The notes below the pieces were generated by a model. The model was given only the letters and a program-made list of their open reading frames with translations. It was not told the origin of the DNA and made no database searches. From contig CAKZLB010000005.1 of the NCBI GenBank assembly GCA_937124965.1, positions 1 to 64,000 on the forward strand: a stretch of 64,000 bases of DNA, written 5' to 3'. This document shows positions 57,613-64,000 of this stretch, piece after piece. This DNA comes from an uncultured Bacteroidota bacterium (lineage in GTDB: Bacteria; Bacteroidota; Bacteroidia; NS11-12g; UBA9320). A program made the position numbers and the translations under genes. Numbering within the stretch: the stretch's first letter is position 1; each line of letters opens with the position of its first letter.

Positions 57613-57641
57613 TTTTAAGCCAATCTTAAGAATACTTTAAT
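57613..57641 (+). promoter_or_regulatory. 11-bp-period direct repeats upstream of the OmpR-type regulator (putative operator)
   Basis: Units TTTTAAG (57613-57619), TCTTAAG (57624-57630) and a weaker CTTTAAT (57635-57641), all in 11-bp register. The first unit lies 51 bp before the -7 element. This is the usual arrangement of tandem sites for OmpR-family regulators. Confidence 0.55.
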
Positions 57642-57671
57642 TGGTAATTAATTCATGTAGACAGATATTTG
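57641..57671 (+). promoter_or_regulatory. Promoter of the two-component-system genes
   Basis: TTG (57641-57643), 20 bp, GATATTTG (57664-57671; seven of eight consensus). The ATG follows 4 bp later, so the message would be leaderless or nearly so. Confidence 0.5.
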
Positions 57672-57675
57672 ATCC

Positions 57676-58344
57676 ATGAGAATTCTTATCGTTGAAGACG
57701 AAGAAGGTATTGCTGCGTTTTTAAAGCAAGGGTTGGAAGAGGAATCATTTGCGGTAGATGTATCCAACGACGGAAAAAAAGGATTAGAATTAGCGCTCAC
57801 AGAGGATTACGACTTATTGTTACTCGATTGGATGTTACCAGGAACTAGCGGAATCGAAATTTGCAGACAGTATCGAAAAAAAAACGAAACAACACCGATA
57901 ATTCTATTAACAGCAAAAGATACAGTAGATGAAACAATATTTGGTTTACAATCTGGTGCTAATGACTACATCAAGAAACCATTTCACTTTGACGAACTTC
58001 TTGAAAGAATAAAAGTTCAGCTCCGACCAAAATCTGGTGGGCATGCAGTGTTTGAGCTTGGCCCAATTACTTTAAACACAGAAACACATCAAGTTCACAA
58101 AAACGGGAATGCGGTTTCATTAACTCAAAAAGAATTTGCTTTACTAGAATTTTTAATCAGGAATAAGGGAAAAGTATGCAGAAGAACACGAATTATTGAA
58201 AGTGTTTGGGATATTCATTTTGAGTACAACACGGGAGTAATTGATGTATACATCAATGCTCTGCGAAAAAAGTTGTCATTAACAGAGAAAGAAAACTACA
58301 TCCAAACAGTTCGAGGTGTTGGATATATTGCCAAGGAACCATGA
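57676..58344 (+). CDS. OmpR-family response regulator
   Basis: 222 aa. Receiver domain (1-115) with VEDEEG, phospho-acceptor Asp51 in LLLLDWMLPGTSG, the Thr of LLTAKD and Lys in KKPFHFDEL. Winged-helix output domain (about 125-220) with LTQKEFALLEFLIRNKG, VWDIHFEYNTGVIDVYINALRKKL and IQTVRGVGYI. The close sequence style is CusR/CopR/ArlR-like. It overlaps the kinase gene by 4 bp (ATGA). The pair precedes a VIT1 transporter and a CusA pump, so metal control is likely. Confidence 0.93.
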   Translation: MRILIVEDEEGIAAFLKQGLEEESFAVDVSNDGKKGLELALTEDYDLLLLDWMLPGTSGIEICRQYRKKNETTPIILLTAKDTVDETIFGLQSGANDYIKKPFHFDELLERIKVQLRPKSGGHAVFELGPITLNTETHQVHKNGNAVSLTQKEFALLEFLIRNKGKVCRRTRIIESVWDIHFEYNTGVIDVYINALRKKLSLTEKENYIQTVRGVGYIAKEP

Positions 58345-59720
58345 ACATCAGTTTCAAAAATAGAATCGCGTTGTATTATATGATGGCTACAGCTATAATA
58401 ATGGCTGTAATTTTTAGTGCAATTTATATTGGCGTTCACCAAACCGTCATGCTAAACCTCGATGAAGATTTGGCATACGAAGCAGAAAAACACACGCATG
58501 AAATAGTAATACAAGAAGACAGTATTCACTTTATTAATAAGGCGGAATGGGAAGAGAGGGAACATCGGGAAATACAAGTAAACCCTGTTTTCATTCAACT
58601 GATTGACGTGAATGGGAGACTAATGGATAAGTCTCCAAATTTGAAATATAATCAATTGTCGTTTAAAGACTCTAAGGTTAAAGAGCACTTTGACTCTAAG
58701 TTGAGTAACCGATCTATTAGACAAGTTCAGCTTCCTGTCTATTACAAAGAGAATATAAATGGGTATATATTGGCTGCGATGTCCTCAGAGTCGGCTGAGT
58801 CAGTAATTTTAAAGCTCCAAAACGTCCTTATTCTTTCGTTCCTTATCATTCTAAGCGTACTATATTTTGTTTCACGATTCATTGCAGGTCGAGGTATTCG
58901 GCCAATTAAAGAAGTAACCAAAACCATAGCACGAATTACAAATAAGAACTTGACACAACGTGTTGCACTACCACAAAACAAAGATGAAATTTATGAATTA
59001 TCATATAGTTTCAACGATTTGCTTGAACGTATAGAAATGGCACTCGAACGTGAGAGGCAATTTACCTCTGATGCTTCACATGAATTGAGAACTCCGCTTG
59101 CTGCAATACGTGGCACGCTAGAAGTACTCATTCGAAAAAAGCGAAGCACAGACGATTATGAGGAAAAAATAAAATTTGCCTTGACCGAAATTGATCGTAT
59201 GTCAAATACTATTGAGCAATTACTATTGCTCGCTAGGTTAGACGAGAAGTCAGCAAATCACAAAAGCCAACACATTGACATAGAAACAGCTATTCAAGAA
59301 TCAATCAGTCACTTTACGGACGAAATAGCTCAAAAAAACATTAGGGTTGAGGTTGATTTTAACTCCTTGGAATCGAAAAAAGTTCCTCATTATTATTCCA
59401 GCCTTATTTTTAATAACGTCATTGGAAACGCAATAAAGTATTCTTACGACAAGTCTTCACTGAGAATAAGTGTTGAGCAATTTACCAATGAACTACACTG
59501 TATTATCGTGGATCAAGGAATTGGAATTAAATCAGAAGATTTAAAACAGATTTTCGGAAACTTTTTTAGATCTGATTCATTAAACCATAAACACATAAAA
59601 GGAAACGGTCTAGGATTGTCTATTGCTAAAAAATGCGCGGATGCGATACATGCAACCATTGAAATAACCAGCACTTTGAAAAAAGGAACATCAGTAACTG
59701 TGGTATTCAAATTAGTTTGA
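58341..59720 (+). CDS. Membrane sensor histidine kinase (CusS-like)
   Basis: 459 aa. Two membrane helices (about 12-34 and 155-175) with a periplasmic sensor of 120 residues between. A HAMP region (about 176-230, RGIRPIKEVTKTIARITNKNL) is followed by HisKA with ASHELRTPLAAIRGTLEVL (His about 246) and HATPase with VIGNAIKYSYDKS, VDQGIGIKSEDLKQIFGNFFR and GNGLGLSIAKKCADAI. Topology is that of CusS/CopS metal sensors. No obvious metal-binding His/Met cluster is seen in the sensor, so the signal is unproven. Confidence 0.92.
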   Translation: MNISFKNRIALYYMMATAIIMAVIFSAIYIGVHQTVMLNLDEDLAYEAEKHTHEIVIQEDSIHFINKAEWEEREHREIQVNPVFIQLIDVNGRLMDKSPNLKYNQLSFKDSKVKEHFDSKLSNRSIRQVQLPVYYKENINGYILAAMSSESAESVILKLQNVLILSFLIILSVLYFVSRFIAGRGIRPIKEVTKTIARITNKNLTQRVALPQNKDEIYELSYSFNDLLERIEMALERERQFTSDASHELRTPLAAIRGTLEVLIRKKRSTDDYEEKIKFALTEIDRMSNTIEQLLLLARLDEKSANHKSQHIDIETAIQESISHFTDEIAQKNIRVEVDFNSLESKKVPHYYSSLIFNNVIGNAIKYSYDKSSLRISVEQFTNELHCIIVDQGIGIKSEDLKQIFGNFFRSDSLNHKHIKGNGLGLSIAKKCADAIHATIEITSTLKKGTSVTVVFKLV

Positions 59721-59749
59721 ATTAATTTACTGTCAATAAAATAAACATC

Positions 59750-60457
59750 ATGAATAATACGCAAGAAGACTATTTAGCCAACCATTATATACATCGCAGT
59801 AATTGGTTGCGTGCCGCTGTGCTTGGTGCAAATGATGGAATTTTATCTACAGCAAGTATTGCAATTGGTGTAGCCGCTGCTAGTAACTTAAAAGAACCTA
59901 TACTCATTGCAACTCTTGCAGGTTTGATTGCTGGAGCGCTTTCAATGGCTGCAGGAGAGTATGTATCCGTCAGTTCACAAACCGACGTTGAACAAGCCGA
60001 TATTGAAAGGGAACGAATAGAGCTTGACGAAATGCCAGAAATAGAATTAGAACGACTAACCGAAATTTACGTTCAGCGTGGTTTATCGCAAAGCACCGCT
60101 AAAAAAGTTGCTGAAGAACTTACCGAACACGACGCTCTTGCAGCGCATGTTCGTGACGAATTAGGTATACATGAACAAAATCAAGCAAAACCATTACAAG
60201 CTGCCTTTGCATCGGGCGCTGCATTCAGTGCTGGTGGTATTCTGCCTTTATTAGTCGTAGTTTTTTTACCAATACTAAATCTCGAATATTACATCTATGC
60301 TTTTGCCATTTTTTTCTTAATTCTTTTGGGAGTTTTGGCTGCTAAAACTGGTGGTTCAAGTGTACTAAAAGCGGTGCTCAGAATTACTTTTTGGGGAACA
60401 GCAGCCATGGGACTTACTGCATTAGTAGGTCACATATTTGGTGTTAATTTAGGGTGA
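59750..60457 (+). CDS. VIT1/CCC1-family iron/manganese transporter
   Basis: 235 aa. Five helices with the family boxes RAAVLGANDGILSTASIAIGVAAA and GLIAGALSMAAGEYVSVSSQTDVEQADIERE, then an acidic, metal-binding cytosolic helical region (about 80-140), and the C-terminal helical hairpin. Family members export Fe2+ or Mn2+ from the cytosol. It starts 29 bp after the kinase gene, likely in the same transcript, and its stop is followed within 6 bp by the repeat upstream of the CusA gene. Confidence 0.9.
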   Translation: MNNTQEDYLANHYIHRSNWLRAAVLGANDGILSTASIAIGVAAASNLKEPILIATLAGLIAGALSMAAGEYVSVSSQTDVEQADIERERIELDEMPEIELERLTEIYVQRGLSQSTAKKVAEELTEHDALAAHVRDELGIHEQNQAKPLQAAFASGAAFSAGGILPLLVVVFLPILNLEYYIYAFAIFFLILLGVLAAKTGGSSVLKAVLRITFWGTAAMGLTALVGHIFGVNLG

Positions 60458-60463
60458 TTAAAA

Positions 60464-60481
60464 TCTTAAGACAATTTTAAG
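60464..60481 (+). promoter_or_regulatory. 11-bp-period direct repeats upstream of the CusA fusion (putative operator)
   Basis: TCTTAAG (60464-60470) and TTTTAAG (60475-60481), the same half-sites and period as upstream of the response regulator, again 51 bp from first unit to the -7 element. Confidence 0.55.
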
Positions 60482-60482
60482 A

Positions 60483-60501
60483 AAGGCTTCATGATAGCCT
60501 T
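60483..60501. repeat. AAGGCT-N7-AGCCTT dyad upstream of the CusA fusion
   Basis: Perfect 6-bp arms between the direct repeats and the larger dyad. It could end the VIT1 transcript or be an operator; no T-run follows. Confidence 0.35.
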
Positions 60502-60529
60502 AGGTTTCATAAAATACATTTGAAACCTA
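60501..60529. promoter_or_regulatory. 9-bp inverted repeat surrounding the CusA -7 element
   Basis: TAGGTTTCA-N11-TGAAACCTA, perfect arms. The -7 element TACATTTG (60515-60522) lies across the spacer and right arm, so a dimer binding here would block initiation. Confidence 0.5.
60515..60522 (+). promoter_or_regulatory. -7 promoter element of the CusA fusion gene
   Basis: Exact TACATTTG, 9 bp before the ATG at 60532; no -33 TTG is present, consistent with activator-dependent transcription. Confidence 0.6.
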
Positions 60530-60531
60530 TC

Positions 60532-63500
60532 ATGAAAAACGACTCTCTGTTAGAAAGAATCATTCAATACAGCATTCAACACAAGTTGATTGTATTGATG
60601 TTTTCATCAGCAATTATTGGATTTGGCATCTTTTCACTTTCTGAAATCCCCATCGGCGCGGTTCCTGATATTACCAATAATCAAGTTCAAATACTAACGA
60701 CGTCGAGGAATTTGGCAACAGAAGATGTTGAAAAATTTCTAACATACCCAGTTGAATTAGAAATGGCGAATCTACCCGACGTTCAGGAAATTCGTTCAAT
60801 TTCAAAATTTGGTCTTTCAGTAGTTACAGTTGTATTTGATGATAGAATTGGAACATACTTGCCAAGACAGTTGATTGCTGAAAAAATCAAAACTGCATCA
60901 GAAAAAATTCCCGTAGGATTTGGGACTCCATTTATGGGGCCGATTTCCACTGGTCTTGGAGAAATTTATCAATACACGATTGAAGTCGATTCTGCTCATA
61001 AAAACACGTATACTTTGTCGGAGTTACGTACCATTCAAGATTGGATTGTCAAAAGACAGCTTTCTGGTATTCCTGGAGTTGTTGAAGTTAATACATGGGG
61101 CGGTCATCTAAAACAATATGAGGTTGCAGTTAACCCAGAAAGTTTACAAAGTTTAAACATATCCGTAACTCAGGTCTATCGCGCACTTCAAAAAAACAAC
61201 AGCGTTGCAGGTGGTGGTTATATAGAAAAAAGTAATCAAGCATATTTCGTTAGAGGGGAAGGGCTAATTCGGTCTATTCGTGACATCGAAAATATTGTCA
61301 TCGATAATCGAGGTGGTACTCCAATTTTTGTTAAAGACGTTGCAAGGGTTCGGTTTGGTCATGCCACGCGTTTTGGTGCTATTACGGGAAACGGTGAAGG
61401 CGAAAAAGTATTAGGTCAAGTGATGATGCTTAAAGGTGCAAATTCAAAGGCAGTGATCGACGCCGTAAAAGAACGTGTAAAACAAATATCGCCTTCTCTC
61501 CCACCAGGAATCACCATAAATCCATTTTTAGAACGCAGTGAATTGATAACAAAAACAACTTTCACTATTGCAGAGAATTTAATACTAGGATTCCTGATTG
61601 TAGTTTTCGTCGTTGTTTTATTGCTCGGCAATCTTCGGTCAGGGATGGTTGTAGCCTCAATTATACCAATGTGTTTATTGTTTGCACTTTCATTAATGTA
61701 CCTATTTAACGTTGATGCAAACTTAATGAGCCTTGGAGCTATTGATTTTGGAATAATCATCGACGGAGCGGTAATTATCGTTGAGTATATTGCCTTTAAA
61801 ATCACCGCTAAAAGTAGTCAGATTCTTGCACTACCCAAAAATGAACAACAAGCATTAAAAGACAAAATCACCTTTCAAGGCGCAAGTAAGATGATGCATT
61901 CTGCTGTTTTTGGACAATTGATTATCATCATCGTATTTATTCCAATTCTCTCACTAGTTGGTGTTGAAGGAAAAATGTTTCGCCCAATGGCTTTAGTTTT
62001 CTGCTTTGCACTTATTGGTGCAATGATTCTTTGCTTCACGTATGTTCCAGTAATGGTATCGCTATTTATTAAACCAACTAATCCTAAAAAGAACACTCTA
62101 TCTAAAAGGCTAAATTCATTATTAGAAAAATCGTATAACCCAATAATCGTTAAGGCATTGCGCAGAAAAAAAACAGTACTAACATTTGCTGTTTTGCTGT
62201 TGCTGTTTTCTGGTTTTATTTTTTCACGAATGGGTGGTGAGTTTGTCCCAACTCTTGATGAAGGAGATTTTGTAATTCAGCCTGTACTTAAGACTGGTAC
62301 TAGTTTGAGCAATACAGTACAAGCAACCACACAGATAGAATCTATTCTTAAACGATTTCCAGAAGTGGAACAAGTGGTCAGTAGAATTGGCGCTGCTGAG
62401 GTACCAACAGACCCAATGTCGATGGAGGAAAGTGATGTCATGATTAAACTTCTTCCCAAAAAATATTGGATATCTGCTGATACCAAAGATGCACTTGCCG
62501 ATACATTTAAACGCGCACTGTCGGAGATACCGGGCGTTGAGTTCGAATTTACTCAACCCATTGAAATGCGGTTCAATGAACTCATTACAGGCGTCCGAGC
62601 AGACCTGGCAATAAAAGTTTTTGGAGAGGATTTGACGATTTTAACTCAAAAAGCTTTACAGATTGAAAGCGCCATTAGGCATATTGACGGTGCCGCTGAC
62701 ATTACCGTTGAAAAAATTGAGGGTTTACCACAAATGTCAGTTGTTTATAATCGACAACTTATCGCAAAATATGGAATTAATGTAGAGGAGCTAAACGATT
62801 TGATTACAATGGGGTTTGCAGGAAAAACAGCAGGGACAGTCTTGGAAGGTGAAAAGCAATTTGATTTAGTAATTCGATACGAAAATCAGCACCGTCAAAA
62901 CATTGAAGACCTTGAAAGCATGACAATTCGACTTCCAAATGGGAATCAATTACCACTAAGAGAATGCGCCACAATCAGCTATACCAAAGGACCAGCTAAA
63001 ATATCGCGAGACAATACCAAACGACGCATTGTGGTTGGTGTTAATGTTCGGAATAGAGACTTAGAATCGGTAGTAAACGACGTGCAAAAAACTATCAACG
63101 CTAACATAAAATTGCCGGTGGGATATACCATCGAATACGGTGGACAATTTGAAAATTTGAGAACGGCGCGACAACGGTTGATAGTTGCCGTTCCGATAGC
63201 CCTGCTTCTCATTTTCATCCTATTATATTTTGCTTTTAAATCCGTCAAACAAGCTTTACTAATTTACAGCGCTATTCCAATGTCAGCCATTGGGGGAATT
63301 ATATTATTGAATTTGCGAGATCTACCGTTTAGTATATCAGCGGGTGTTGGGTTTATCGCTCTTTTCGGAATCGCAGTATTGAATGGAATTGTACTTATTG
63401 AAGAGTTTAACGAATTAAAAGCTGATGGCGTGAGGAATATTCATAAGAGAATTTTACTTGGGACCAGAAACAGGTTGCGCCCCGTGCTTCTTACAGCATC

Positions 63501-64000
63501 CGCTGCCGCATTGGGTTTCTTGCCAATGGCTGTTTCTACTTCTGCAGGAGCGGAAGTACAGAAACCATTGGCAACTGTTGTAGTAGGTGGATTGATATCC
63601 GCATCGATATTAACCTTAATCGTTTTGCCTATTTTATACGTACTTTTTGAACAGAAAGATAACACTAAGCTCAAACTAAAAGGAAAACGAGTGATGAGTT
63701 TGTTGCTTTTATTTATTCCGTTGTTGAGCTTTAGTCAGACCAACACCATAACCCAAGAACAAGCCGTTGAAATTGCACTACGCAACAATCAAACTTTGAG
63801 AGCATCGGCACTTAGAATTGATCAACGAAATCAATTGGTTAAAACCTCTTTCGATATTGACAAAACAGAAATATATTTTAATAAAGACGAAAACAACATT
63901 GCACCAAACAATATTGCACTAAACGTGTGGGGCGTTAATCAATCCATTCCATTTCCAACTATTTATGGCGCCAATCGAGATGTGCTTCGGTCGAAATATA
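60532..64000 (+). CDS. CusA/CzcA heavy-metal RND pump fused to a TolC-like domain, 3' end outside window
   Basis: The frame is open from ATG 60532 to the window edge (1156 codons). Residues 1-1040 are a complete heavy-metal-efflux RND protein: VPDITNNQVQI, GAIDFGIIIDGAVIIVEYI in helix 4 with the proton-relay acids, GGEFVPTLDEGDFVIQ, FTQPIEMRFNELITGVRAD and helices to LILTLIVLPILYVLFE-type ends. A Lys-rich bridge follows, then a signal-like helix at about 1054-1069 (MSLLLLFIPLLSFSQ) and a TolC/OMF start, ITQEQAVEIALRNNQTLRASA, with helical continuation. The fused arrangement occurs in Bacteroidota. Whether Cu, Co/Zn/Cd or another metal is moved cannot be told. Confidence 0.9.
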   Translation, partial: MKNDSLLERIIQYSIQHKLIVLMFSSAIIGFGIFSLSEIPIGAVPDITNNQVQILTTSRNLATEDVEKFLTYPVELEMANLPDVQEIRSISKFGLSVVTVVFDDRIGTYLPRQLIAEKIKTASEKIPVGFGTPFMGPISTGLGEIYQYTIEVDSAHKNTYTLSELRTIQDWIVKRQLSGIPGVVEVNTWGGHLKQYEVAVNPESLQSLNISVTQVYRALQKNNSVAGGGYIEKSNQAYFVRGEGLIRSIRDIENIVIDNRGGTPIFVKDVARVRFGHATRFGAITGNGEGEKVLGQVMMLKGANSKAVIDAVKERVKQISPSLPPGITINPFLERSELITKTTFTIAENLILGFLIVVFVVVLLLGNLRSGMVVASIIPMCLLFALSLMYLFNVDANLMSLGAIDFGIIIDGAVIIVEYIAFKITAKSSQILALPKNEQQALKDKITFQGASKMMHSAVFGQLIIIIVFIPILSLVGVEGKMFRPMALVFCFALIGAMILCFTYVPVMVSLFIKPTNPKKNTLSKRLNSLLEKSYNPIIVKALRRKKTVLTFAVLLLLFSGFIFSRMGGEFVPTLDEGDFVIQPVLKTGTSLSNTVQATTQIESILKRFPEVEQVVSRIGAAEVPTDPMSMEESDVMIKLLPKKYWISADTKDALADTFKRALSEIPGVEFEFTQPIEMRFNELITGVRADLAIKVFGEDLTILTQKALQIESAIRHIDGAADITVEKIEGLPQMSVVYNRQLIAKYGINVEELNDLITMGFAGKTAGTVLEGEKQFDLVIRYENQHRQNIEDLESMTIRLPNGNQLPLRECATISYTKGPAKISRDNTKRRIVVGVNVRNRDLESVVNDVQKTINANIKLPVGYTIEYGGQFENLRTARQRLIVAVPIALLLIFILLYFAFKSVKQALLIYSAIPMSAIGGIILLNLRDLPFSISAGVGFIALFGIAVLNGIVLIEEFNELKADGVRNIHKRILLGTRNRLRPVLLTASAAALGFLPMAVSTSAGAEVQKPLATVVVGGLISASILTLIVLPILYVLFEQKDNTKLKLKGKRVMSLLLLFIPLLSFSQTNTITQEQAVEIALRNNQTLRASALRIDQRNQLVKTSFDIDKTEIYFNKDENNIAPNNIALNVWGVNQSIPFPTIYGANRDVLRSKY

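Follow-up and report, generated by a model that had tools for sequence, protein, structure and literature searches.

Promoters recognized by PmrA (BasR) of Enterobacteriaceae carry a box with the consensus (C/T)TTAA(G/T)-N5-(C/T)TTAA(G/T), i.e. half-sites arranged head-to-tail with a period of 11 bp (PMC10729948 and PMC3973317, in the parts accessible to us). AgrR, one of the heavy-metal response regulators of Proteobacteria, is described as a Type II activator at most promoters studied, and its box is an inverted repeat (6-4-6) with extra direct half-sites at some operators (PMC7380067, accessible part); the LciR box is the inverted repeat ATTACAAnnTTGTAAT (PMC6989116, accessible part). A heavy-metal two-component operator of Bacteroidota was not found in open-access literature listings. 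Here, we analyze a stretch of 64,000 nucleotides (the window; contig CAKZLB010000005.1) from an uncultured Bacteroidota bacterium, which is AT-rich and has its relatives in the Bacteroidota. It contains two copies of the tandem box TYTTAAG-N4-TYTTAAG, one upstream of an operon encoding an OmpR/PhoB-type response regulator and a sensor kinase, the other upstream of the gene for a CzcA-like resistance-nodulation-division (RND) pump, and a search of titles and abstracts in the open-access literature returned no description of this box in Bacteroidota. Judging from sequence and its conservation, we consider it very probable that both copies are operator sites of the adjacent regulator, which would activate its own operon and the pump and thereby form a self-amplifying metal-export switch.

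All features given here lie on the forward strand. The operator of the regulator operon consists of the exact pair TTTTAAGccaaTCTTAAG (57613-57630), composed of unit 1, TTTTAAG (57613..57619), and unit 2, TCTTAAG (57624..57630), and starts 63 bp ahead of the regulator ATG. The pump operator is the exact pair TCTTAAGacaaTTTTAAG (60464-60481) with TCTTAAG (60464..60470) as unit 1 and TTTTAAG (60475..60481) as unit 2. In the own genome (4.09 Mb searched) the exact pattern occurs only twice, both times at this locus. A preliminary description of the window had reported tandem TYTTAAG units of 11-bp period at both sites as well as a common distance of 51 bp between the first base of unit 1 and the -7 element, and both statements hold (57613 to 57664 and 60464 to 60515). 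The -7 element of the regulator promoter, GATATTTG (57664..57671), has one mismatch to TAnnTTTG, and the start predicted from it, 57676, is the first base of the ATG. The element of the pump promoter, TACATTTG (60515..60522), is perfect and predicts a start at 60527.

Relatives were obtained by scanning genome contigs with the regulator, and the best 80 of 200 loci were kept (71-84% identity, all orthologue-like). They come from many Bacteroidota families, together with a few metagenome contigs filed under Ignavibacteriota, Calditrichota and Thalassovita. In 69 of the 80 loci the 150 bp ahead of the regulator contain a box with one mismatch or none (none in 55), whereas 200 dinucleotide-preserving shuffles gave such a box in 0.165 loci on average and in 2 at most. 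Similarly, 53 of the 54 orthologous pump genes (>60% identity, start within the locus) are preceded by the box in the region from -200 to +30, in 46 cases by an exact one, while mononucleotide shuffles gave 0.025 on average and never more than 1. For the -7 element we counted TAnnTTTG, with one mismatch tolerated, if it lay 49-51 bp from unit 1, and shuffled everything behind the box as control. It is found in 52 of the 53 pump promoters (1.67 expected; perfect in 33, 0.1 expected) and in 53 of the 69 regulator promoters (3.25 expected; perfect in 9, 0.26 expected). The latter fall into two groups according to the distance between box and ATG, which is 61-63 bp in 54 and 91-124 bp in 15 promoters (13 from Dyadobacter, including loci L069, L074 and L079, and 2 from Algoriphagus), and 52 of the 54 with the nearby box have the element at 49-51 bp.

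The box also follows the regulator beyond these loci. We built a sequence-only promoter model from 81 promoters of other genomes, thinned from 107 at 85% identity. In the own genome its best matches are at 60463 (E 2e-8) and 57613 (E 7e-8), the next one having an E-value of 0.06; a wider regulon was not found there, neither with the one-mismatch pattern, whose counts are given below, nor with the model, which has no match beyond the two at E<0.05, in a search whose first look scored 150 of 3942 candidates. In seven further genomes (G058-G064), which were reached via L035, L043, L046, L062, L075, L081 and L076 and either supplied promoters for the model themselves or are close to genomes that did so, every match with E<0.001 is on the contig of the regulator locus, weaker matches being scattered. 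A phylum sample supplied loci of more distant orthologues, of which the best 29 besides the window were fetched, and 27 of these match the model at E<=0.05. We cut this set to 25 loci, as nearer ones may repeat species of the 80 and the upstream stretch of L159 resembles that of L078; in the remaining loci of 61-69% identity, none of which is among the 80, the model finds a match in 23 of 25 at E<=0.05 and in 22 at E<=0.01. The misses are L167, whose upstream stretch is cut by a contig end, and L176. These matches were counted anywhere in the fetched 3-3.7 kb and are mostly upstream of the regulator, but downstream only in L161, and in L175 and L178 they precede a small gene in front of the regulator, ~0.6 kb upstream. 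The same-family orthologue in G009 (67% identity) has the box at -63. Of 20 paralogue loci (42-49% identity), in contrast, one shows a match, a partial one of 16.3 bits, and L115-L117 (42-43%) show none, so that 22 of 23 paralogue loci are without a match. Thus, the orthologous promoters keep the repeats, at regulator loci, pumps and the more distant loci alike.

This distribution also bears on the question of which protein reads the box. The recognition helix of the regulator, NTGVIDVYINALRKKL, is nearly invariant across the 80 orthologues and differs from those of BasR/PmrA and CusR at positions thought to be base-reading, the PmrA residues being those proposed in PMC3973317 (accessible part). 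As the half-site pair fits the published PmrA consensus while the helix departs from PmrA at just these residues, a different OmpR-type regulator with PmrA-like specificity might bind the boxes instead. We regard this as very unlikely, since the boxes follow the clade of the present regulator, are missing at 22 of the 23 paralogue loci, and the only strong sites of the own genome flank this regulator.

Several points weigh against our assignment of the sites to the adjacent regulator. Every locus was retrieved via the regulator, which makes the association of box and regulator partly one by construction, and the 23 paralogue loci are the sole negative controls. In 11 of the 80 loci the 150 bp preceding the regulator contain no box, even if one mismatch is allowed. 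Of these, L075, L105, L108 and L110 (Algoriphagus) have it ~3 kb upstream instead, L062 has it upstream at 0.8 and 4.6 kb and L044, with a single mismatch, at 0.9 kb, and L034, L078, L087, L095 and L106 have no box upstream of the regulator within the available stretch. One pump (L108) is preceded by a two-mismatch box only, and the -7 element of the regulator itself is imperfect in the window. Earlier best-offset counts of the -7 element (68 of 69 regulator promoters) broke ties towards 50.5 and thus flattered the spacing; the shuffle-controlled counts given above replace them. Moreover, the regulator promoters with a distant box have the element at 49-51 bp in 1 of 15 cases (0.62 expected), i.e. 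at chance level. The spacing is therefore kept ahead of the pumps and where the box of the regulator promoter is near the ATG, but not in those with the distant box, where the -7 element may lie elsewhere and the promoter may work in a different mode. Finally, looser forms of the motif are not enriched: 9 matches are counted in the window when two mismatches are tolerated (shuffles: 6.75 expected), and 26 in the own genome when up to one is tolerated (reversed control pattern: 29). Nor is the exact motif enriched in a set of 58 genomes that includes the own one, with 17 sites as opposed to ~39 for the reversed control, the background being ~0.3 per genome. This could indicate that the repeats have arisen by chance in AT-rich DNA or are a general feature of Bacteroidota promoters. 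However, within the own genome only the exact pairs stand out and the relatives have to decide, and there 69 of 80 and 53 of 54 promoters, against 0.165 and 0.025 expected, and 1 of 20 paralogue loci already contradict such an origin, which we consider practically negligible.

Alignment of the promoters on unit 1 reveals more than the strong pair. Pump promoters read TtTTAAGcaAATCTTAAGAaa...tT.AGa.....cTtAG, then ta..tTTg, and regulator promoters read TTTTAAGcaAATCTTAAGAaa...ctAA......tTTaA. In both alignments (53 pump and 54 regulator promoters) the frequency of TYTTAAG matches has maxima at offsets 22 and 33, so the operators comprise four units in 11-bp phase with a strong distal and a weak proximal pair. 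In the window, the weak units 3 and 4 are CTTTAAT (57635..57641) and AATTAAT (57646..57652) for the regulator operon, and GCTTCAT (60486..60492) and GCCTTAG (60497..60503) for the pump. The preliminary description had proposed a third unit for the first site, which is indeed in phase but deviates from TYTTAAG at two positions; its list lacked unit 4 of this site and units 3 and 4 of the pump operator. The -7 consensus of Bacteroidota is TAnnTTTG with T at -12, G at -5 and a start 4-5 nt after the element (PMC6847099, accessible part). In this numbering the four units of the window cover ~-63 to -24 and the proximal pair overlies the position of the -33 element. A TTG 19-21 bp upstream of the -7 element is present in 0 of 53 pump promoters (2.5 expected) and in 2 of 54 regulator promoters (2.7 expected). 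The earlier proposal that the pump promoter lacks a -33 element is consistent with these counts, but the lack is not specific to the pump, as regulator promoters share it. In F. johnsoniae the -33 element is generally weak (PMC6847099, accessible part), and its absence alone is thus no proof of an activator; nevertheless, we infer that both promoters depend on one. A 9-bp perfect dyad around the pump -7 element (60501-60509 / 60521-60529) was considered as second operator and rejected, a perfect dyad of at least 7 bp being present in 1 of 53 orthologous promoters.

Regulators of the OmpR family may activate or repress from similar boxes. Together with the TTGG located 19 bp before the -7 element of the window's regulator promoter, which could render this promoter active unaided, this would allow the regulator to bind but mainly to repress, or to activate one promoter and repress the other. 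We hold this to be unlikely: the -7 spacing is the same in pump promoters (52/53) and near-box regulator promoters (52/54), the units are upstream of the -7 element and not over it, and the TTGG is not a conserved feature, since only 2 of 54 regulator promoters have a TTG there.

The position of the -7 element has a further consequence for the regulator mRNA. In the 54 regulator promoters with the box at most 66 bp from the ATG an exact TTTG is found 4 nt before the ATG in 45 and 3 nt before it in 2, the remaining 7 having none. TTTG-N4-ATG predicts a start at or beside the A of the ATG, and the mRNA is thus probably leaderless. This would be unusual, as 87% of the predicted transcripts of F. 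johnsoniae have leaders of >10 nt (PMC6847099, accessible part).

Based on these findings we propose that the kinase senses a periplasmic metal, probably a divalent cation, through conserved His and Glu residues that follow closely on its first membrane helix. Once phosphorylated, the regulator would bind the four 11-bp half-sites head-to-tail as two dimers, the first one on the strong distal pair (~-63 to -46), followed by cooperative binding at the weak proximal pair (~-41 to -24). The proximal dimer might stand in for the missing -33 element and recruit RNA polymerase to the fixed -7 element. In this way the regulator would activate its own operon (regulator, kinase and VIT transporter) from a predicted leaderless mRNA, resulting in positive autoregulation, and likewise the adjacent CzcA-like pump operon. 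In substance, this agrees with the self-regulated metal regulon predicted by the preliminary description, which the conservation data support.

The regulator (57676..58344, 222 aa) is CusR/CzcR-like. As the preliminary description had stated, it is OmpR-type, with the receiver domain (PF00072, 102.7 bits) and the Trans_reg_C winged helix (PF00486, 90.2 bits) both scoring above gathering. Regulators of this class bind direct head-to-tail repeats of ~10-11 bp, and repeats of this kind are present and conserved here as candidate binding sites. Its best family is TIGR01387 (CztR/SilR/CopR; 218.1 bits, below the cut-off of 279.2); it scores 156.7 bits with the PmrA/BasR equivalog NF007928, below the cut-off of 330, and is 42% identical to E. 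coli CusR. The sensor histidine kinase (58341..59720, 459 aa) is closest to TIGR01386 (201.2, below the cut-off of 292.55). Ahead of its HAMP domain, in a region assigned as periplasmic by eye, it has the conserved residues E47, H51, E72, E74 and H75; H51, E74 and H75 are invariant in all 77 kinases that could be aligned from the 80 loci, and E47 and E72 are conserved at 95%. We rejected the view that the system is PmrAB or CusRS proper, as the proteins are below the family cut-offs and the sites are not an inverted-repeat box of the CusR/CopR type. A putative metal transporter of the VIT family (VIT1, 235 aa, 59750..60457) follows 29 bp after the kinase and is probably part of the same operon.

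The pump gene (60532..64000) leaves the window and ends at L113:7879. RND pump and TolC-like channel are apparently one open reading frame of ~1450 codons with the TolC-like part fused to the C-terminus, followed by a CusB-like gene (L113:7885-9030; L113:3521-9030 for the whole arrangement), the TolC-like and CusB-like labels being assigned by eye from sequence. The preliminary description had called the pump CusA. Its family is supported, as it scores 1116.5 bits with TIGR00914 (CusA/CzcA HME-RND), above the cut-off of 701.45, but its subgroup is not. The methionine triad of E. coli CusA (M573, M623 and M672) is replaced by Q, E and E in a pairwise alignment, which would place the pump outside the copper/silver subgroup, and transmembrane helix 4 reads DFGIIIDGAVIIVE, presumably the CzcA-like divalent-metal pattern. 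Divalent metals of the Zn/Co/Cd type are thus likelier substrates than copper.

In various loci the box also precedes further genes, i.e. thioredoxin-like/ApbE/DUF3570 genes, a VIT protein, DUF2231/rubrerythrin genes, a haem-binding domain protein and a Rieske protein; judged by their families, the additional genes found behind the box at some loci relate to metal or redox functions. In Lutibacter-like loci (L049:7342-8433, L059, L061) it is followed by the gene for a 364-aa protein with a C-terminal VIT domain (Pfam, L049) and an N-terminus that is ferritin-like by eye. In Algoriphagus (L075:1931-5000; L105, L108, L110) the box heads an operon of ArnC/ArnT-like glycosyltransferases running into the regulator (GT2-like by eye; LAB_N/PMT_2 by Pfam, L075 only), which recalls the PmrA regulon and is the basis for a reading as envelope modification.

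The regulator locus may not have been inherited strictly vertically. Regulators of 82-84% identity are found in several families, e.g. Flavobacteriaceae, Cyclobacteriaceae and Saprospiraceae. In four genomes of the same genus (two <90% complete) no orthologue was found at E<=1e-40. This pattern points to horizontal transfer of the locus, but only as a suggestion, since in a protein tree the window regulator is on an unresolved branch, inside no starred set. A Bacteroidota-type copy with boxes and TAnnTTTG-like elements is also present on L097, a possibly mis-binned contig that is filed under Thalassovita (Pseudomonadota). We may speculate further, although we rather doubt it, that there is a phylum-wide Bacteroidota regulon in which a CzcR-like regulator came to read a PmrA-type box independently of PmrA, that the whole metal switch, with its four sites, leaderless mRNA and self-amplification, is passed on as one unit between classes and even phyla, and that Algoriphagus joins metal sensing and envelope modification as in PmrAB via the ArnC/ArnT-like glycosyltransferases.

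To our knowledge, activation at Bacteroidota promoters, with their TAnnTTTG element and hard-to-see -33, is little mapped. A box at fixed spacing in dozens of genomes allows regulon prediction from sequence, and activation on this sigma factor becomes open to direct tests. In addition, it provides a candidate metal-inducible promoter for Bacteroidota.

The DAP-seq motif of R. anatipestifer PhoP (most conserved TTTAACA; PMC9603813, accessible part) differs from the box described here. A similar TTTAAG box was considered for pneumococcal CiaR, but the string was not found in the one paper examined for it, and the comparison was not used. Among sensors, the zinc sensor CzcS of P. aeruginosa binds metal through His55 and Asp60, which are located on the N-terminal helix of its sensor domain (PMC5540610, accessible part). 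In a comparison by eye of the sequences, E47, H51 and E54 of the present kinase are similarly placed after the first membrane helix, whereas E72, E74 and H75 form a second conserved cluster. With the CusR/CopR/CzcR/AgrR systems of Proteobacteria, the locus shares the best-scoring family for both regulator and kinase, the adjoining HME-RND pump and, in the reading proposed here, autoregulation. In contrast to these systems, the repeats are direct with an 11-bp period and not inverted, as AgrR and LciR boxes are in the accessible descriptions, and both proteins are below the family cut-offs. At PhoB-dependent promoters the pho box consists of direct 11-bp units that end ~10 bp before the -10 element and replace the -35 element. 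Here, unit 4 similarly ends 11 bp before the -7 element, but half-site and signal are different and the strong pair is the distal one. The box itself resembles that of PmrA/BasR, and both sites of the window match this consensus, as given in the accessible parts of its descriptions, letter for letter. Nevertheless, there are four units instead of two, a metal pump adjoins, the -7 element is of the Bacteroidota type, and the regulator differs from BasR at positions 188, 193, 195 and 196, which offers a natural test of how one box may be read by two different recognition helices. It represents a novel operator in a system of a familiar kind.

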